Shown here piece after piece: positions 2,314 to 18,237 of a stretch of DNA of 42,308 nt (positions are counted from its first letter, which is position 1; every line of letters begins with the position of its first letter). Source of the stretch: a virus; the IMG/VR virus record IMGVR_UViG_3300034103_002135, positions 1-42,308 of that record. The stretch is one strand, 5' to 3'. Both the position numbers and the translations under genes were made by a program. The notes under the pieces were generated by a model that was given only the letters and a program-made list of their open reading frames with translations, had not been told where the DNA came from and ran no database searches.

Positions 2314-2586
2314 TCACAGCACCGGGAGCTTCTTGTCGGCCTTGGCGTGCCTGACGTAGCGCAACTCGCTGGTGGAGGTCTGCGAATCCTCGTCGGCCAG
2401 CCGGTAGGCCAGCACCGCCAGCTTGTCGGCCAGCAGCACCCGCTTCCTGCCGGAGGCCAGCGCTATCACCTCGTTGTCGGCGGCCCGCCAGATGAAGAAC
2501 ATCCCGGGGATTTCGCCGCGCAGGTCGATGGAGGTCCGGTAGCCGTCCTGCTCGCCGCCGAACAACTGGATTTGCACCTCAGCCAT
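2314..2586 (-). CDS. Hypothetical 90-aa protein
   Basis: ATG start preceded by a GAGGAGG-type ribosome site. The protein alternates beta-type hydrophobic residues with charged ones and has no membrane segment, cysteine motif or recognised domain. It stands between the DUF732-like secreted protein upstream and the 596-aa protein downstream, with about 50-base gaps on both sides, so it has its own ribosome site rather than a coupled start. Confidence 0.75.
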   Translation of the reverse strand: MAEVQIQLFGGEQDGYRTSIDLRGEIPGMFFIWRAADNEVIALASGRKRVLLADKLAVLAYRLADEDSQTSTSELRYVRHAKADKKLPVL

Positions 2587-2639
2587 TTCGCCTCCTCGAT
2601 CCTCACCCTTTCAAGACCGAGGACCGGCCGGCGGCAGGG

Positions 2640-2984
2640 TCAAGCCGTCGACCCGCCCCGCTGGTCGAACTGGGGGCACAGGTTCTCCACCGCGACGACC
2701 ACGAAGGTGGCCGCGTCGTCCTTGTCCACGCTGAGGTCGGTGCTGCGGTAGATCATGGTCGCCACCTGCACGCCGTCGTAGCCGTCGTCCAGCGCCCGGC
2801 AGACCGCGTAGCCCTGGTTGAGCAGGCCCACGTCGCCGTAGGCCCGGTTGTACCAGCCCAGGTCGTGGACGGCGTCGAGGAAGCTCGACGAGTCGGCGTG
2901 CGCATCCGGGGCGGTGGCCGCCGCGATGGTGGTGCCCAGCACCGCGCACAGCGACCACCAGGCGATCCTGCGTCGGTCCATCAT
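2640..2984 (-). CDS. Secreted DUF732-like protein
   Basis: The N-terminus is a classical Sec signal peptide: basic MMDRRR, a hydrophobic stretch to about residue 24, and a likely cleavage site after AHA. The mature part of about 85 residues has the features of the mycobacterial DUF732 family of small exported proteins: an early Phe-Leu-x-x-Val pair, a Gly-Trp motif, and a Cys in a VCRALDDGY segment paired with a Cys near the C-terminus, so one disulfide is likely. The family is known mainly from mycobacterial genomes, which supports a mycobacterial host and suggests capture of a host gene. Its role in the phage is unknown; it would act outside the cytoplasm. Confidence 0.8.
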   Translation of the reverse strand: MMDRRRIAWWSLCAVLGTTIAAATAPDAHADSSSFLDAVHDLGWYNRAYGDVGLLNQGYAVCRALDDGYDGVQVATMIYRSTDLSVDKDDAATFVVVAVENLCPQFDQRGGSTA

Positions 2985-3190
2985 CAGACCCTCCTCACGT
3001 ACAGTTTCAGGGATAGTCGCCGGGCGTCCCCCTCGGTGTCCGGCCCCAGGTCGAGGAACGCCCGCCGGACGACCATCACCGCTGTGTCGTCGGCGGCGTG
3101 GATGACGTCGCCGGGGAAGGGCGGCCCGGACAGGTAGACCCGGCCCATCCTCCCCTTGTCGTTGTGGTCGATCAGGTCGGCGATGATCAC
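2984..3190 (-). CDS. Hypothetical 68-aa protein
   Basis: GTG start overlaps the stop of the esterase gene upstream in a GTGA pattern, so translation is probably coupled. The stop falls at the start codon of the secreted DUF732-like gene. The short sequence is beta-rich (VYLSG, TAVMVV, LSLKLYV) and has no recognised domain. It may be a small partner of the esterase, but only position suggests this. Confidence 0.6.
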   Translation of the reverse strand: MIIADLIDHNDKGRMGRVYLSGPPFPGDVIHAADDTAVMVVRRAFLDLGPDTEGDARRLSLKLYVRRV

Positions 3191-3780
3191 GGCACGATCA
3201 CGTACTCGGTGTTGCCGACCGTCCGGACGGTCTCGGCGGCCGGGCCGAACAGGTCGACGCCCCAGTAGTTGGTGTGGATCGAGCCGAACATCGCCAGCGC
3301 CTTGTTCTTGCCGTGCCTGGCCGGGTCGTAGTCGGCCCAGTTGTCGCCCCGCCGGGTCACGTCGCGGACCCGGTACTGGGTGGTGTCGGGGGTGACCTTC
3401 AGGGTCCAGGGCTGCCTGCCGTATTTCCGCTCGGGGTTGCCGATCAGGATGAACGACAGCCGTTCCGGGTCGGGGGCGTCGGCGCGGGAGGCGAACATCC
3501 GCAGCCACGTCCCGGCCACCTGGGCGCCCTGGGAGTAGCCCAGCACGGTCAGCGGCCCGTCCAGGGACCGGATCAGCCCGTCGAGGCGCCGGGCACCGAC
3601 CTGGATCGAGCCGGACGGCTTGTCGCCCGCGGACGGGTCGAGCATCGCCGGGTAGCGCACCTGGACCTGGGTCCGGCCGCCGGTCACCGCATAGCCGCGG
3701 CAGACCCGTTTCATGTAGTTGATCGTCTTGTCGACGCCCAGGTCCAGGGCGCTGACGGTCAGTACGGTGGTGCTCACCAT
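3187..3780 (-). CDS. Serine esterase of cutinase / PE-PPE type (second LysB-like enzyme)
   Basis: A 197-residue alpha/beta hydrolase. The nucleophile elbow is GYSQG with Ser83. Candidate acid residues are Asp146 or Asp150 in a RRGDNWADYD segment, and the candidate His is His169. This order and spacing fit cutinases, PE-PPE esterases and phage LysB enzymes, which cut ester bonds in cell-envelope lipids. There is no signal peptide and no peptidoglycan-binding domain, unlike the larger LysB at 24215-25231. The ATG at 3780 has GAAGGAG upstream and overlaps the previous gene's stop. It may help release mycolates or act on another lipid; substrate unknown. Confidence 0.8.
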   Translation of the reverse strand: MVSTTVLTVSALDLGVDKTINYMKRVCRGYAVTGGRTQVQVRYPAMLDPSAGDKPSGSIQVGARRLDGLIRSLDGPLTVLGYSQGAQVAGTWLRMFASRADAPDPERLSFILIGNPERKYGRQPWTLKVTPDTTQYRVRDVTRRGDNWADYDPARHGKNKALAMFGSIHTNYWGVDLFGPAAETVRTVGNTEYVIVP

Positions 3781-9485: not shown

Positions 9486-9850
9486 TAACCGCAACCACCA
9501 CGGTAGGTGCTGTATGCGCGGGCGGTCTCATGAACCGTCACCGAGGACAGTTCAGGCAACTCAGCGACGAGGTTGTCCCAGAACCAGACCGCCAGATTCT
9601 CGCTGGTGGAGTTGGGGATGACATCATTGACGGTGCGATGATCCAGCAGGTCAAGGAGGGGCGCCGCCGCGGCCTTGATGTCGGAGTAGTCGCGCACCAT
9701 GCCGGTGCTGGCGCCGACCTCGCCGGACACCGTGATCACCACCCGGTAGGAGTGGCCGTGGAGGCGCCTGCACTTGTGGCCCTCCGGCACGCCGGGAAGC
9801 CAGTGGGCGGCCTCGAAGTCAACCTCGTAGGACACCTCAACAAACGGCAT
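9485..9850 (-). CDS. queD: 6-carboxy-5,6,7,8-tetrahydropterin synthase QueD
   Basis: 121 residues, the usual QueD length. Zinc ligands His16, His31 and His33 and the catalytic Cys27 lie in GHKCRRLHGHSY, which separates true QueD from 6-pyruvoyl-tetrahydropterin synthases lacking this Cys. LLDHRTVND, PNSTSENLAVW and the late VTVHET follow in the family order. It converts dihydroneopterin triphosphate to CPH4, the first committed step toward preQ0. No folE is in the window, so the GTP cyclohydrolase I step probably comes from the host or another part of the phage genome. The ATG overlaps the last base of the queE stop. Confidence 0.95.
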   Translation of the reverse strand: MPFVEVSYEVDFEAAHWLPGVPEGHKCRRLHGHSYRVVITVSGEVGASTGMVRDYSDIKAAAAPLLDLLDHRTVNDVIPNSTSENLAVWFWDNLVAELPELSSVTVHETARAYSTYRGGCG

Positions 9851-10479
9851 CAGCGAACTCCTATCACTTTGTGAACCTGGGTGTTGAGCCGCCACTGGGG
9901 ATGGACCAACAGGTAGTCAAGGGTTTTCTGTACGTTATCAGCCGACAGGCTGTCTACAGCGTTGCGCGGGCTGAGCCAGAAATGAGCAAAGCTAAGGTCA
10001 GCGAACCGCTCGGGGGTGACCCGGTCCTGCGGGTAGACCAGCTTCAGTTCATCGCCGTGGGTGATCCGCACGGTCGGGGTCTTGGGCGACACACAGACCC
10101 AGTCCACCGGCAATTCCTTCAGCGGCAGGGTGCCGTTGGTTTCCAGGGCGGTATAGAAGCCAGCCCGCCGGAACGCCTCCACCAGATCGGCGTCGAGCTG
10201 CAGCAGCGGTTCGCCGCCGGTGAAGATCACCATCGGCTCGGCCCAGGAGCGCATCCTGGGCATCACGTCCTCAACGGCGTTGACCACCGCGCCGGCGTCC
10301 TCCATCTCGGTGGCCGCGACGAAGTCGGTGTCGCAGAACGAGCAGATCGCGGACGCCCGGCTGGCGGGATCGCCGTCCCACAGGTTGCAGTCGGAGAATC
10401 GGACGAACACCGCCGCCCGACCGGCCCAGTAACCCTCGCCCTGGATGCTGTAGAAGATTTCGTTGATGCGGTAGCTCAC
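9850..10479 (-). CDS. queE: 7-carboxy-7-deazaguanine synthase QueE (radical SAM)
   Basis: 209 residues. The N-terminal YSIQGEG motif precedes the iron-sulfur Cys31, Cys46 and Cys49, a CX14CX2C spacing as in some proteobacterial QueE enzymes rather than the plain CX3CX2C. FTGGEPLL at about residues 86-92 is the SAM-binding GGE motif. It rearranges CPH4 to CDG. The ATG overlaps the queC stop by four bases, and its own stop meets the queD start, so the three pathway genes are translated together. Confidence 0.95.
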   Translation of the reverse strand: MSYRINEIFYSIQGEGYWAGRAAVFVRFSDCNLWDGDPASRASAICSFCDTDFVAATEMEDAGAVVNAVEDVMPRMRSWAEPMVIFTGGEPLLQLDADLVEAFRRAGFYTALETNGTLPLKELPVDWVCVSPKTPTVRITHGDELKLVYPQDRVTPERFADLSFAHFWLSPRNAVDSLSADNVQKTLDYLLVHPQWRLNTQVHKVIGVR

Positions 10480-11093
10480 AGTCCGGCCTCGGATCGGGCG
10501 GCACAGGCACCGCAGCTCCTGCAGGGTTCTTCGCCGCCCCGGTAGCAGGACCAGGTCAGTTCCAGCGGCGTACCCAATCGACGGCCCAGCGACACCACCT
10601 CGGCCTTGCTGCAGTACAGCAGGGGGGCATGCAGGAAGACATGGTTCCTGGTGCCCAGCCGGATCGCCTCACGCAGGGCCTCGATGAACTGCGGGCGGCA
10701 GTCGGGGTAACCGCCTGCGTCGGCGGCGTTGGCACCGAAGGCCACCCTTCCGCACCCGAGGCCGTCGGCCACGGCGGCGGCGACGGACAGCAGAACCAGA
10801 TTGCGGCCGGGAACCTCCGTTGCGTCGGGGGCGTCGGCGTGGTGGTCGGGAATCTCCCCCACGCCGGTCAGCGCCGAGGCACCGAACACCGATCCCAGAT
10901 TCACCACCTGGTGGCGCACCCCGTAGTGGGACGCGACGACGGTGGCCGACAGCAATTCCTGGCGTTTATGGCTCTGGCCGTAGGCGAAACTGACCGCCCC
11001 TACCTGATCGGCGCCGTGGCGGTGGACGGAGTCGGCCAGAACCACCGCGGAGTCCACCCCGCCGGACAGCAATACCAGTGATCGCACGGTCAT
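10476..11093 (-). CDS. queC: 7-cyano-7-deazaguanine (preQ0) synthase QueC
   Basis: 205 residues. The PP-loop SGGVDS is at residues 10-15, and FAYGQSHKRQEL is the next family motif. A zinc site of four cysteines lies at 183, 191, 194 and 197 (WSCYRGGEEPCRSCGAC). It uses ATP and ammonia to turn CDG into preQ0. First of the four coupled modification genes; its ATG overlaps the stop of the Cys-rich protein upstream (ATGA), which puts that protein in the same operon. Confidence 0.95.
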   Translation of the reverse strand: MTVRSLVLLSGGVDSAVVLADSVHRHGADQVGAVSFAYGQSHKRQELLSATVVASHYGVRHQVVNLGSVFGASALTGVGEIPDHHADAPDATEVPGRNLVLLSVAAAVADGLGCGRVAFGANAADAGGYPDCRPQFIEALREAIRLGTRNHVFLHAPLLYCSKAEVVSLGRRLGTPLELTWSCYRGGEEPCRSCGACAARSEAGL

Positions 11094-11308
11094 CCCGCCC
11101 AGCCGGTCGCGCATGTGCAGTTGTCCCGGCCGTGGCAGGTGCCGCAGTAGGCGGGGTCGTCGTCGCGGTAGGCGCACAGCGGGTGCCTGGCGCAGCGGTC
11201 TTCCTTGGGGCGGGGAGGCAGGCCGGGACTGTCCCAGGGCAGGACGGGGAAGCAGTCCTGCATGGCGTTGCCGGACTGCCTGCCGCACCCACAGATGCAC
11301 GTTCTCAT
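11090..11308 (-). CDS. 72-aa cysteine-rich protein in the preQ0 operon
   Basis: Begins MRTCICGCGRQSG. Ten cysteines and several histidines are arranged as CxCxC, then CARHPLC, YCGTC and CTC, enough for two zinc sites. The GGAGGAGGAGGAGGA run just upstream acts as ribosome site and also encodes the poly-Glu tail of the preceding gene. It overlaps queC by four bases. It could be a zinc-finger adaptor or may simply travel with the operon; no family is recognised. Confidence 0.7.
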   Translation of the reverse strand: MRTCICGCGRQSGNAMQDCFPVLPWDSPGLPPRPKEDRCARHPLCAYRDDDPAYCGTCHGRDNCTCATGWAG

Positions 11309-12666: not shown

Positions 12667-14340
12667 TCAGTCTTCGTCGTCGGGGGCGGGCACGTCCAGG
12701 TTCTTCAGCAGCATCGAGATCGCGGCGTAAGCCTGCTGGGGGACCACCCCGTTACCGACGATCCGCAGCTGCCCCGTGCGGGAGACCCCGATCTCGGGGT
12801 CGCTGACCCATCCCTCCGGCCAGCCGATCAGCCATTCGGAGAAACGGGCGGTCAGCCGCGGGTTGCCGTTCTTGTTCGGCTCGGTGGGCGCCGGGGCGGG
12901 ACGGGTCAGCGACTCCCACCGGGCCACCGCCGGTCCGTACTTCCCCCACCGGCCGGCGGGGAAGTGGCCGGTCACGGCGGCCAGGTCGGGGGAGTTGCGT
13001 TCCCGCTCCGACGGGCAGTCGCCGCGCTGGTGGGTCTTCGGGGTCGGCAGCAGCAACCCGGCCTCCCCGGCCACCTCGGCCTCGGCCAGGTCGGCGATCA
13101 CCGCACCCAGCGCCGGGTTGGTGCGGGCCATCTCCCCCGGCGAGTTACGGACCAGCGAGGCCCCGACGGTCGGGGTCGGCAGCAGTGAACCCTTCCCCTC
13201 GGGGAGCCGGGACACCACATCGCCCAGCGACACCGAGCGTCCGTTGTTGCCGACGTCAGCGGCCGGGTCCTGCATGTGGCCGTTGCCGTCCTGGGCCACC
13301 GGGGTCGGCAGCAGCGGGGCCATCTCCGCGCCGACCGCCTCCGACAGCGACACCGACTGGCCCTTGGCGCGGCGCTGATCCGGGGTGCTGGCCGTGCCGT
13401 CGCTGGCCCCGGCCCGGGGAGTCGGCAGCAGCGGGGAATCCCCGGCAGGCTCCCTCAGATCATCGCCCAGCACGGCGTCGATCAGCTTGACGCGGTGACC
13501 GGCGGCCTTGGTCCTGTCGGGATCGGTGCCGCCCCGATGGCCGTCGGCGGCGCTCGGGGTGGGGAACATCTGGTCGCCGCGGTCGGTGACCACCCAGTCG
13601 GCGTTGGAGTCCACGGTCTCCGGCTTGCCGCCGCCGTCCTTGACCAGCGGGCGCCACTCGTCGGGCACCTCGTCCCAGCTGTCGAACTCGAGCGGCAGCG
13701 TTCCCTGGGTCAGGTCGACGGCCTGCCGGACGGTGGGGCCGGAATCGGTCTTGCGGCGGGTGTTCGGCGCCTCGGTCATGGGAACCTCCTTGTTGTCATG
13801 GGCGAACAGGCCGACCACGTCGCGTAGCCGGGAGTTACCGCCCTGCCCGGTGGGTTTGGTGGTGCCCTCCCAGGACAGCCCGGTGCGGATGCCGCCGCCG
13901 GAGCCGTCCGACTGGGTCGGTGTGGGCAGCAGGGGGGCATCACCGCTGGCGTACTCCTGCGCCCAGTTCCGCATGCCGTAGCCGTGCGAACCGCCGCCGT
14001 CCGCGGCCAGCGGGGTCGGCAGCAGGGCATCCTCCTCAGCCAGCTCCCTGGGCAGGTCGACCTCCATCGCGGCGGCCAGCCGGGGAACCCGGACGTTCTC
14101 GTCGTGGGCGCCGCCGGAGGACGCCCCGCGCGAGTCGCTGGTGGTCGGGGTCGGCAGCAGCTTGACCGGCGGGTCATCGGGGATTCCCATCAGCGACACG
14201 ATCGTGCCCAGGTGGGTGGACTTCTCGATGGGCCGACCCGAGGTGCGCGGGGTGCCGAACACCCCGTCGTGCGCCTTCGGGGTCGGCAGCAGCGGCAGCT
14301 TCTCATCCAGGCTGATGGGCGGCGGGTTCTCCTCGGTCAC
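12667..14340 (-). CDS. C5-cytosine methyltransferase C-terminal part with LPTP repeat array
   Basis: 557 residues. Nine copies of an LLPTP-x3-D type module (one as MFPTP) spread over residues 17 to about 450. The last 100 residues match the C-terminal end of C5 methyltransferases: PAVARWE, then NGNPRLTARFSEWLIGWPEGWV (motif IX neighbourhood), then GNGVVPQQAYAA (motif X). The catalytic half (motifs I-VIII) is in the gene at 15796-16389, so this frame probably supplies the target-recognition and closing part of the enzyme. The ATG overlaps the stop of the middle frame (ATGA). No homologue with this many modules is known to me. Confidence 0.8.
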   Translation of the reverse strand: MTEENPPPISLDEKLPLLPTPKAHDGVFGTPRTSGRPIEKSTHLGTIVSLMGIPDDPPVKLLPTPTTSDSRGASSGGAHDENVRVPRLAAAMEVDLPRELAEEDALLPTPLAADGGGSHGYGMRNWAQEYASGDAPLLPTPTQSDGSGGGIRTGLSWEGTTKPTGQGGNSRLRDVVGLFAHDNKEVPMTEAPNTRRKTDSGPTVRQAVDLTQGTLPLEFDSWDEVPDEWRPLVKDGGGKPETVDSNADWVVTDRGDQMFPTPSAADGHRGGTDPDRTKAAGHRVKLIDAVLGDDLREPAGDSPLLPTPRAGASDGTASTPDQRRAKGQSVSLSEAVGAEMAPLLPTPVAQDGNGHMQDPAADVGNNGRSVSLGDVVSRLPEGKGSLLPTPTVGASLVRNSPGEMARTNPALGAVIADLAEAEVAGEAGLLLPTPKTHQRGDCPSERERNSPDLAAVTGHFPAGRWGKYGPAVARWESLTRPAPAPTEPNKNGNPRLTARFSEWLIGWPEGWVSDPEIGVSRTGQLRIVGNGVVPQQAYAAISMLLKNLDVPAPDDED

Positions 14341-15672
14341 GGCTGGCCGCCGCGCAGCAGGGAGATGACGGTCTCCAGCAGGCTGATGATCTGGGCCTGC
14401 GCCGGGTCGATGACCACACCCTCGAGAGGGTCCGGCGGTTCGGGCGGGGCGTCCGCATCATCCCGGGCCAACCGCTGCACCTCCACGGCCAACGACTTCC
14501 CCCGACCGTTGCCGTTGTAGCCCTTCTTCTTCAGTTCCTCGGCCCACTCGTCGAACCGCTCCGGGCTGACCCCGATCTCCTGGGCCATCGGGGTGGGCAG
14601 CAACTCGATCCTCTCCCCATCACCATCCTGGTCGAGCAGACCGGCCGCGGCCACGTCGTTGAGGTCGGCGCCGTACCCGCGGCCTCGGTTCACGGCCTCC
14701 GGCTTGCCGCCGGTGGCGTCCCGGGTCTGCGGGGTCGGCAGCAGCGGGACGCCCTCGCCGCCGCGCTGCACCTCCACCGACAGCGACCTGCCGTGGCCGT
14801 TGCCGTTGTAGCCCTTGGTTTTCAGCTTCTCGGTCCACTCGTCCCACTGCTCCGGGGTCTTGCCGGCGCCCATGTCGTTGACCACCGGGGTGGGCAGCAG
14901 CGGCAGGTCGCGGACGACGTGCGGGAGCATCACCTGGCGGCCGGAGTCGATCCGGCCCTGCAGGGAGGTCGATCCGCACATGTGGTCGGTGGCGTTCGGG
15001 GTGGGAAGCAGCGGCTCGGCGGCCTCCAGGCCCAGCCGCTCCGCGTCCACCGGGTTGGTGCCGCACAGGGCGCCCTGCAAGGTCGGGTTGCCACCGGCGT
15101 GGGTGGTTCGCTTCTCCCTGCTGTCCAGCGTGGTCGGGGTCGGCAGCAGCGGGGCCTGGCCGGTCTCGCGGATCATCTCGTCGATGTCGCGGGCCAGGTT
15201 GTGGGTGTTGAAGTTCTTGCCCGGCACGCCCTTCCAGTCCCTGGCCTGCGGGGTGCCCATCAACTCCTCGTCCTGCGGGCGGTCGGGGGTCTCCCCGGTC
15301 AGGTGGTAGTGGATGGCGCCCAGGCCGGGGGACTTCCGCTCACGCTCGGCCGGGCTGTTGGTGCCCTTGGAGTCCGAGGTGCGCGGCGTCGGCAGCAGCG
15401 TCCCCGGCGCGTTGGTGATGTCGCCCTTGAACACCACGTCGTTCAGGGTGGTCCCGGTGTTGTGCTGGGAGCCGGGCTGACGGCCGGAGGTCTCGTTGCG
15501 GCCCTGCGACGAGGTCGGCGTCGGCAGCAGCAGGGGATCATCCCCCACCTCGAGGTCGAGCATCCGGGGCAGGTCGGTGAGGTGCCTCTGCCGGCGACCC
15601 TCCCGCAGCGACTCCAGCGACTGCTGCATGCTGCCGCCGGAGCCGTCCACCGCGCTCGGGGTCGGGAGCAGG
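13034..15672 (-). repeat. LLPTP module array (about 18 units, two genes)
   Basis: On the plus strand GGGGTCGGCAGCAG occurs exactly about eight times, with roughly ten close variants spaced 100-160 bases apart except for one longer gap. Each encodes LLPTP, MFPTP or MGTP on the minus strand, then a variable part with a conserved Asp, Gly-rich turn and a Leu/Val helix. Sixteen units are LLPTP and two are degenerate. The array crosses the boundary between the two genes. Confidence 0.85.
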
Positions 15673-16028
15673 CCGAGCCGGTCAAGCTCGGCGACCTGGT
15701 TGCCGACCCCGGCGGGCTTGGAGCGGGTGTTCGACCCCATGTTCGGGGCGTCCGGCATGGTGTCCGGGGTGTGGAACAACTCCAGCTGGGGCCGGTCAGC
15801 CTTCTGGACGGGGGGTCGCGAGGATGAAGACCCGGTCGCGGCGGTGGGGCGCCCCGACTGAGGAAGCGGATACAGTCGCCCACTGCGCATCATACCCGAG
15901 GTCTGAAAGGTCGCCGAGAACGGCTCCAGCGGCGCGGAGGACGGGATCGGCGGCTGCCCCCGCTTCTGCTTCGGGTGCGCCTCCCACAACTCCTTCTGCG
16001 GGTTCCACGTTGCGATGGGCTTTGGCAC
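14337..16028 (-). CDS. LPTP-repeat protein, middle part of split C5 methyltransferase
   Basis: 563 residues starting MPKPIATWNPQKELWE. Residues 1-75 contain SATFQTSGMMRSGRLYPLPQ and a run of Ser, a start I recall from actinobacterial and phage proteins next to C5 methyltransferases. From about residue 120 on there are nine LPTP-type modules (eight LLPTP, one LMGTP). Near the C-terminus two units share a PEQWDEW/PERFDEW-KGYNGNG-SL-VEVQR pattern, so they are recent duplicates. Its first 233 bases overlap the catalytic gene in another frame. It may contact DNA or bridge the catalytic and C-terminal parts; no catalytic motif is visible. Confidence 0.75.
   Translation of the reverse strand: MPKPIATWNPQKELWEAHPKQKRGQPPIPSSAPLEPFSATFQTSGMMRSGRLYPLPQSGRPTAATGSSSSRPPVQKADRPQLELFHTPDTMPDAPNMGSNTRSKPAGVGNQVAELDRLGLLPTPSAVDGSGGSMQQSLESLREGRRQRHLTDLPRMLDLEVGDDPLLLPTPTSSQGRNETSGRQPGSQHNTGTTLNDVVFKGDITNAPGTLLPTPRTSDSKGTNSPAERERKSPGLGAIHYHLTGETPDRPQDEELMGTPQARDWKGVPGKNFNTHNLARDIDEMIRETGQAPLLPTPTTLDSREKRTTHAGGNPTLQGALCGTNPVDAERLGLEAAEPLLPTPNATDHMCGSTSLQGRIDSGRQVMLPHVVRDLPLLPTPVVNDMGAGKTPEQWDEWTEKLKTKGYNGNGHGRSLSVEVQRGGEGVPLLPTPQTRDATGGKPEAVNRGRGYGADLNDVAAAGLLDQDGDGERIELLPTPMAQEIGVSPERFDEWAEELKKKGYNGNGRGKSLAVEVQRLARDDADAPPEPPDPLEGVVIDPAQAQIISLLETVISLLRGGQP
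15796..16028 (-). other. Dual-coded overlap of the methyltransferase and repeat protein
   Basis: The same 233 bases encode, in one frame, methyltransferase motif VIII (GAPHRRDRVFILA) and, in the other, the SGMMRSGRLYPLPQ-type start of the repeat protein. Both frames carry sequence that looks conserved in homologues. The relation between the frames would need a +1 shift for a direct fusion. Confidence 0.7.
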
Positions 16029-16389
16029 TTAACAATCCCCTGACGTTCTCGATGACGACGTAGCGCGGCCGGATGGCCTCGATGGCGGTGGCGAACACCG
16101 ACCACAATCCCGACCGGGTGCCCTGCTTGATCCCGGCCCTCTTACCCGCCGAGCTGACGTCCTGGCACGGGAATCCCCCACAGAGGACGTCGACCGGCTC
16201 CACGGTGGACCAGTCGATCTCGGCGATGTTGCCCAGGTTCGGGGTGTTCGGGAAGTGATGCTCCAGCACCTTGGAGGCGTCCTTGTCGATTTCGCTGTGC
16301 CAGACCACCTCCCCGCCGAAGATCGCGGTGACGGCCATGTCCAAGCCACCCGCGCCGGTGAAGAGAGAGCCGATCTTCAAGCTGGTCAC
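15796..16389 (-). CDS. C5-cytosine DNA methyltransferase, catalytic part (motifs I-VIII)
   Basis: 197 residues. Motif I FTGAGG is at 10-15, motif IV GGFPCQDVSSAG contains the catalytic Cys75, motif VI ENVRGLL is at 114-120, and motif VIII HRRDRVF is at 182-188. The frame then stops, lacking target-recognition region and motifs IX-X, which are found in the frames at 14337-16028 and 12667-14340. Split C5 methyltransferases that work as two chains are known (M.AquI). GTG start with a weak ribosome site. The Vsr gene nearby fits 5-methylcytosine production. A single chain by frameshifting is an alternative. Confidence 0.9.
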   Translation of the reverse strand: MTSLKIGSLFTGAGGLDMAVTAIFGGEVVWHSEIDKDASKVLEHHFPNTPNLGNIAEIDWSTVEPVDVLCGGFPCQDVSSAGKRAGIKQGTRSGLWSVFATAIEAIRPRYVVIENVRGLLSAKAHRNVEPAEGVVGGAPEAEAGAAADPVLRAAGAVLGDLSDLGYDAQWATVSASSVGAPHRRDRVFILATPRPEG

Positions 16390-17461: not shown

Positions 17462-17830
17462 ATGGATGAACCCACCCTGATCTGCGAGGACGCCCCAGTC
17501 ACGCTGGCCGTCACCGACCTGTTCGTCTACCCGCTGACGACCTGCTGCCGGGCATCCGGCAAGGGCGGCGGGGACGGCGTGATCTGCCGCGCCTGCTACC
17601 GCGACGTGGAGACCTACTTCGGCGACTGCTGGTCGGCCGCCGACGACGACGGCTGGGCCACCTACCAGTGGATGCTGATGGACTTCGGCGCCAGCCAGCG
17701 GACCGCGGACGCCCTCGTCGCGGAGGCCAGACGGCAGGTCGACGCGACCGGACTGGCCCGGAAGCCGCTCAGGAAGCCGAGGTGCGTCTGGGACGCCGAG
17801 GCCAAGAAGATGCGGGTGGTCTTCGAGTGA
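17462..17830 (+). CDS. 122-aa protein with Cys-rich middle
   Basis: First gene of the only plus-strand island. The ATG has GAGGAGGAACGAC upstream. A TTCCRASG pair and VICRACYRDV give up to four Cys for a zinc site at about residues 28-45. A Trp-rich segment and a basic C-terminal part (RKPLRKPRCVW) follow. No family is recognised. It ends in a GTGA overlap with vsr, so it may be a partner or regulator of that enzyme. Confidence 0.8.
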   Translation: MDEPTLICEDAPVTLAVTDLFVYPLTTCCRASGKGGGDGVICRACYRDVETYFGDCWSAADDDGWATYQWMLMDFGASQRTADALVAEARRQVDATGLARKPLRKPRCVWDAEAKKMRVVFE

Positions 17831-18237
17831 CCGCCGCCCCCGTCCCCCTCAGCCGGGCGGTCAGCCGCCGGATGAGCGCGATGCCCTCCAGGGACACCCG
17901 CATCGAGATGGCCCTGCGCCGCGAACTGCACGGCTGGGGCCTGCGCTACCGTACCCACCTCCGCGGCCTGCCGGGCAGGCCGGACGTGGCCCTCACCAGG
18001 GCGCGGATCGCGGTGTTCGTGGACGGCTGCTTCTGGCACAGCTGCCCCGAGCACGGCTCGTCGCCGCGGCACAACGGCGACTGGTGGGCGGCGAAGCTGG
18101 CCGCGAACGTCGAGCGCGACCGGCGCAAGGACGAGCAGCTGGCCGGGCTGGGTTGGCTGCCGGTCCACGTCTGGGAGCATGAGGACCCCGCCACGGCGGC
18201 CGCCCTGATCGTTGCGCTGTGGGAGTCGAGGCGGTGA
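17827..18237 (+). CDS. vsr: Very short patch repair endonuclease Vsr
   Basis: 136 residues, the usual length. SRDTRIEMALRREL is the N-terminal helix motif and LRYR...LPGRPD carries the catalytic Asp53. VFVDGCFWHSCPEHG supplies the metal and zinc-binding Cys and His residues, and WWAAKLAANVERDRRKD and VWEHE follow. Vsr nicks beside T in T:G mismatches that arise when 5-methylcytosine deaminates. It belongs functionally with the C5 methyltransferase 1.4 kb away on the other strand. Residue His64/Phe62-type base intercalators of the E. coli enzyme cannot be aligned with certainty here. Confidence 0.95.
   Translation: MTAAPVPLSRAVSRRMSAMPSRDTRIEMALRRELHGWGLRYRTHLRGLPGRPDVALTRARIAVFVDGCFWHSCPEHGSSPRHNGDWWAAKLAANVERDRRKDEQLAGLGWLPVHVWEHEDPATAAALIVALWESRR

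Follow-up and report, generated by a model that had tools for sequence, protein, structure and literature searches.

A viral C5 methyltransferase predicted to act in three chains, with a conserved overlapping gene and a long array of reassorted LPTP modules

How a methyltransferase whose motifs are distributed over separate genes, two of them filled with short LPTP modules, could act as one enzyme is the question raised by the locus described here. The window, i.e., the whole stretch of 42,308 nucleotides that was analysed, is a complete IMG/VR virus record (IMGVR_UViG_3300034103_002135), and the three genes in question, alpha, beta and gamma, all lie on its minus strand (Table 1). Judged by its sequence, alpha is the catalytic chain of a C5 methyltransferase: it matches PF00145 (E = 1.1e-38) and phrog_363 (E = 1.4e-67) as well as M.HhaI in a phmmer search, and it carries motifs I, IV (PCQ), VI (ENV) and VIII of the PF00145 family, with the open reading frame (ORF) ending shortly past motif VIII. 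Motifs IX and X of the presumed complex are found in gamma. The preliminary description of this DNA, which had placed motifs I–VIII in one gene and IX–X in another, thus holds for alpha and the gamma C-terminus, but the three frames it assumed are in fact two, as gamma shares the frame of alpha, from which in-frame stop codons separate it, and beta is read in +1.

Table 1. Coordinates of the features discussed (positions in the window).
Feature	Position	Strand	Remarks
alpha	15796..16389	-	C5-methyltransferase motifs I–VIII; 197 aa; GTG start
Shine-Dalgarno-like AGGGGA for beta	16036..16041	-	inside alpha codons for ENVRG
dual-coded overlap (predicted)	15796..16028	-	alpha motif VI–VIII segment and beta N-domain (VPKPIATWNP..SGMMRSGRLYPLP)
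beta	14337..16028	-	N-terminal domain, ~9 LPTP modules and C-terminal tail; 563 aa
beta part of LPTP array	14484..15779	-	beta residues ~84–515
beta modules 6 and 8	14473..14856	-	only similar module pair within the array; 93 nt at 82% identity
gamma	12667..14340	-	~9 LPTP modules, then motifs IX–X; 557 aa; frame of alpha
motif IX–X region of gamma	12703..12948	-	WGKYGPAVARWE...EWLIGWPEGW...GNGVVPQQA; alignment, phrog_1008, phrog_10223
Vsr-like mismatch endonuclease	17668..18234	+	PF03852, E 5.1e-21; phrog_13076, E 1.2e-38
QueD-like (PTPS)	9488-9895	-	
QueE-like radical SAM	9853-10479	-	
QueC	10479-11300	-	

Beta starts at a GTG inside alpha, and the resulting overlap of 233 nt, absent from the preliminary description, encodes conserved protein in both frames: the first ~75 residues of beta are read in +1 over the DNA of alpha motif VI–VIII. 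A hidden Markov model (HMM) of this N-domain, run over named phages and viral contigs, yielded 169 loci, which include some contigs fetched twice (138 have distinct overlap DNA), and the domain lay in +1 over alpha motif VI–VIII in all 169. A bacterial genome scan, for which a narrower N-domain alignment was used instead of the diverse one, added 41 loci, nearly all labelled Actinomycetota, with the same overlap in 41/41. Taken together, the +1 overlap occurs in 210 of 210 actinobacterial phage and genome loci with the N-domain, over a GC content of the loci from about 0.40 to 0.75.

Such an open and conserved second frame could simply echo the conservation of alpha. In 134 loci, alpha codons were therefore swapped for synonyms drawn from the same gene, and none of the 26,800 shuffles reached the real +1 score (median 95 bits for the real sequences vs. 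21 bits for the shuffled ones), while the +1 frame was open in 100% of the real sequences vs. 27% of the shuffles. For the window itself, an HMM leaving it out scored the beta N-domain at 75.8 bits, compared with a mean of 22.3 and a maximum of 57.5 bits in 20,000 shuffles of its alpha. The conservation of alpha alone gives about 21 bits, for which reason weak distant +1 matches are not to be over-read; as an explanation of the beta domain, however, a mere by-product of alpha conservation is ruled out by the synonymous shuffles, and beta is a conserved overlapping gene. In the window, the GC content at third codon positions (GC3) of alpha decreases within the overlap, from 0.92 to 0.62; the beta frame has 0.83 there and reaches 0.95 outside the overlap. 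That this DNA encodes both the alpha segment and the beta N-domain appears practically certain from these sequence signatures. At two loci (L020, at ~4310, and L206), the beta N-domain continues into motif VIII-like residues in a single frame (PHKRERV and PHQR, respectively), which suggests that the overlap has suffered an indel and that the enzymes may be rearranged or no longer intact.

The same alpha codons appear to provide beta with its own start. An AGGGGA lies 7 nt upstream of the beta GTG in the window, and across loci AGGGG or AGAGGA ahead of this GTG is built by the ENV-Arg-Gly codons of alpha, the Arg of ENV-R being AGA or AGG in 87% of loci vs. 23% in the background and the Ser codon that holds the GTG being AGT in 84% vs. 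9%. Because ribosome-binding site and GTG are made of rare alpha codons and are conserved, beta most likely initiates at this GTG, which lies seven codons before the first Trp and is the last start codon ahead of the domain in 76 of the 138 distinct loci; most of the remaining loci have a nearby or longer-ORF alternative start. Three loci (L006 at ~3000, L007 at ~2500 and L011 at ~2327) carry a long insert after ENV, resembling the published ShiLan homing insertion, with a beta ATG directly after the insert end, where a GGAGG is also provided. The start of beta thus seems to be the place of the insertion, which seems to bring a new ribosome-binding site. Gamma, with a GC3 of 0.92, lacks a clear ribosome-binding site, its start overlaps the beta stop as GTGA, and its translation would depend on coupling.

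Both beta and gamma match phrog_1008 ("DNA methyltransferase"), and the window shares with the actinophage LPTP methylases of this group the N-domain, the LPTP modules, motifs IX–X and the +1 overlap. Across 134 distinct loci, motifs IX–X are placed in the ORF of alpha in 70 (with beta nested), in that of beta in 52 and in a third ORF in seven, including the window, with five loci incomplete; modules are found in either chain. At locus L038, all modules reside in a beta nested inside a module-free alpha-gamma chain. This switching of IX–X and modules between the chains of alpha and beta bears out the earlier view of a split methyltransferase, and since they move so freely between chains, alpha, beta and gamma very probably form one complex, as far as gene layouts can tell. 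Growth of the array probably took place in an ancestor that had alpha and gamma joined in a single gene, with beta inside it, the link being lost later; descent of the window from such a nested layout is indicated by gamma still being in the frame of alpha.

The array itself comprises 17 exact [LFM]PTP motifs in the window (eight in beta and nine in gamma), where 0.11 are expected in shuffled protein and 2000 shuffles gave at most three, and degenerate HTP/GTP units bring the number to ~18 modules, in agreement with the count given previously for the two genes. Other complete loci have 0–9 modules, typically 3–5, so that homologues do carry only a few units, as stated previously, and the window array is twice as long as that of the longest relative found (18 vs. 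9). Overstated, on the other hand, were the exact DNA repeats: families of 33–50 nt at the LPTP codons are only 62–76% alike, and the best sizeable repeat pair is one 93-nt stretch at 82%. The 18-module array is known from one viral contig, in which an assembly error may lie at the beta/gamma junction, and single-protein scans of viral contigs revealed no close relatives of beta or gamma.

For a comparison between loci, 513 modules were clustered by average linkage (single linkage merged unlike types and was dropped), giving 143 module types, the commonest of which occurs in 46 loci. Arrays differ in 99 of 105 locus pairs with alpha at least 95% identical, although part of these differences reflects the same modules placed in another chain, and 230 pairs of modules reach a similarity of at least 75% despite alpha identities below 60%. 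The phages Ovechkin, Babsiella, Hamulus and Kenuha5, for example, have different arrays at alpha identities of about 95–99%. The best matches of the window modules likewise stem from different phages, e.g., gamma module 3 from L016 (similarity 0.93, alpha identity 0.66) and beta module 7 from L098 (similarity 0.69, alpha identity 0.69). Whether an array ever repeats a type varies with the threshold, and the reliable test is a permutation on dereplicated loci: it showed one similar pair within arrays, namely beta 6/8 of the window, vs. 12.3 ± 3.6 in permuted data. From this depletion it follows that arrays collect unlike modules; the modules are reassorted and non-redundant. In the alpha-gamma ORF of L030, one module breaks off at LLP and continues directly into the segment preceding motif IX (RLLPMCDYALLDG), likely owing to a deletion inside the array.

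Structure prediction, which had been proposed as a check, was informative for part of the enzyme. AlphaFold was applied to single chains, namely the natural alpha-gamma chain of L117 and the beta-gamma chain of L063, with an alignment of 42 sequences in each case. The catalytic core and IX–X are HhaI-like with a pLDDT above 90 and match M.HhaI and M.HaeIII, and the first 50 residues of beta form a small beta-sheet domain (pLDDT 85–93). The modules are mostly below 50 in both models, which may be due either to true disorder or to the poor alignment that reassorted modules give; as reassorted modules align badly, these values speak neither for nor against DNA reading. Gamma had no relative among solved structures and the beta-gamma model no significant match in the PDB, while the significant matches of that model in a viral structure library were phage methylases and unnamed proteins.

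We lean towards a three-chain C5 methyltransferase in which the modules are exchangeable target-recognition units. Alpha would catalyse, with its SAM-binding and catalytic motifs I–VIII, and gamma would complete the enzyme by supplying IX–X, while beta, made from its own GTG in +1 within alpha, would bring a small folded N-domain and half of the specificity array. The modules of beta and gamma, sitting where a target-recognition domain belongs, between motifs VIII and IX, would recognise DNA, and many different modules could lead to methylation of more sequence contexts and thereby to escape from more restriction enzymes. That the chains assemble, that modules read DNA, that many targets or an easy change of target result and that the purpose is anti-restriction is what we infer. 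The module sequences make a role as target-recognition units reasonably likely, as types recur in diverged phages, are swapped between near-identical enzymes and remain unrepeated within arrays. We propose one DNA target per module only tentatively, and the number of modules need not equal the number of specificities. Somewhat doubtful would be a fully combinatorial methyltransferase, with each reassorting module adding a target, up to ~18 contexts, from a library common among phages. Of the three functions envisaged for the array in the preliminary description, multi-specificity is thus the best supported, by reassortment and non-redundancy; a scaffold is less likely, because repeats within an array are avoided, and a decoy is without evidence.

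A competing explanation, which we consider unlikely, is a split methyltransferase of one specificity, in which the N-domain and the module adjoining IX recognise the target. The remaining modules would then serve as a flexible and perhaps disordered tether, binding DNA non-specifically or holding the chains together. The low pLDDT of the modules and the many relatives with just 1–3 of them would suit such an enzyme, as would M.EcoHK31I with its one degenerate target, YGGCCR (PMC3439449). A tether, however, should tolerate repeated units, whereas similar units are depleted in arrays, and specific module interiors are kept across diverged phages. Still further from the data is a decoy or regulator unrelated to methylation: beyond the unusual length of the array nothing points to it, modules share chains with IX–X, and module chains accompany a C5 catalytic chain in the examined loci, which leaves this reading a very slim chance.

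The other two alternatives concern the gene structure. One could regard alpha, beta and gamma as what is left of a methyltransferase gene that frameshifts have broken up and that is decaying, with the array as a by-product, given that relatives manage with one or two ORFs instead of three and given apparently damaged copies such as L030, L020 and L206. Yet the beta frame is kept throughout the actinobacterial loci, its start site and codon choice are selected, and the three ORFs of the window retain coding-type GC3 and the dual-coding signature; we therefore reject a pseudogene as highly improbable. The +1 relation could also be taken as a sign of programmed frameshifting that joins alpha and beta in place of independent initiation. 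A shift before motif VIII would, however, deprive the product of this motif, both the GTG and its ribosome-binding site are conserved, and in relatives alpha runs beyond the overlap to IX–X in its own frame, so that this alternative, too, was rejected as scarcely credible.

Beyond the actinobacterial loci, an inner +1 chain with motif IX, next to an alpha that keeps I–VIII and X, was found in phages of Acinetobacter, Stenotrophomonas, Paenibacillus, Salmonella, Lacticaseibacillus, Porphyromonas and Microcystis. In this second clade, beta overlaps the alpha ORF in +1 in 78 of the 79 loci with alpha, and there are 0–5 modules. For ten named loci outside the model, shuffles reached the real score in 0/1000 cases in five and in 4–51/1000 in the others. 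The Porphyromonas and Microcystis matches, borderline when taken alone (4 and 8 of 1000 shuffles), might be echoes of alpha conservation; this reading was set aside because the larger clade is consistent. In the Paenibacillus phage Shelly (L219, 1560-2264), the inner frame had been entered by annotators under the name "g55 internal gene", so that the overlap was recognised independently. In phiBT1 (L215, 2203-3253), gene 9.1 bears the annotation "DNA methylase may be inactive"; the modules and IX–X missing from 9.1 lie in an unannotated +1 ORF (2321-3253) that overlaps gene 9.1 and fills the gap up to the next gene.

To our knowledge, two-chain C5 methyltransferases with overlapping genes are known from only one or two enzymes. 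In M.EcoHK31I, the small subunit is encoded inside the gene of the large subunit, in an alternative frame, and the window resembles it in that a second chain, likewise out of frame, overlaps the catalytic gene. Motif IX of M.EcoHK31I is located on the second polypeptide, which is needed together with the catalytic one (PMC3404938). Its split, with IX on the second chain and X on the catalytic chain, is the layout of the non-actinobacterial relatives (76 of 79 loci have motif X in alpha) but not of the window, where X, like IX, resides on gamma, a third chain. The three chains and the 18-module recognition array further set the window apart, and the likeness drawn here is one of layout. M.AquI is not known to have an LPTP array or deep dual coding. 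It is a two-polypeptide enzyme for CYCGRG with motifs I–VIII on one chain and IX–X on the other (PMC3404938). The window likewise separates these motif groups, but over three chains. Bacillus phage C5 methyltransferases (SPR, phi3T, rho11, SP-beta, H2) carry tandem target-recognition domains between VIII and IX and are single chains with a few domains. Compared by description only, the window differs from them in its three chains, its overlapping frames and its up to 18 short modules; primary papers on these multispecific enzymes are cited in PMC8936443 and PMC4081073.

The window enzyme belongs with the same phage methylases as the actinophage ShiLan/Dorothy family, which comprises 13 clusters and often recombines within the gene (PMC9957025); a homing insertion that carries an HNH gene out of frame is also described (PMC11855218). 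The overlap reported there is the HNH insertion and is distinct from the +1 beta chain, and term searches of both papers and of a literature library returned no account of a +1 beta chain or a module array. Shelly gp55/gp56 and Corndog-cluster gp6/gp5 resemble the window in that beta lies in +1 of alpha and is annotated as overlapping; these records call the inner frame only "DNA methylase" or "hypothetical" and have 1–3 modules.

Neighbouring genes give further hints on DNA modification in this phage. Vsr enzymes repair T:G mismatches left by deamination of 5-methylcytosine, and a Vsr-like gene ~1.3 kb from the methyltransferase would fit cytosine methylation in the window phage. As a general companion it was rejected, since no Vsr gene was present within the flanks of 301 related loci (0/301). 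The QueD-like, QueE-like and QueC genes, in turn, suggest that a 7-deazaguanine base is probably made by the phage as well, as another type of modification of DNA or RNA.

The overlap described here was found in 210/210 actinobacterial loci and 78/79 loci of a second clade, to which phages from further phyla belong; the named records that were examined often lack an annotation of the inner chain or assign it a wrong start. If the modules set specificity, these arrays would amount to a naturally shuffled collection of parts for C5 methylation. In that case, near-identical phages differing in one module could allow the rules from module to target to be read from methylomes.
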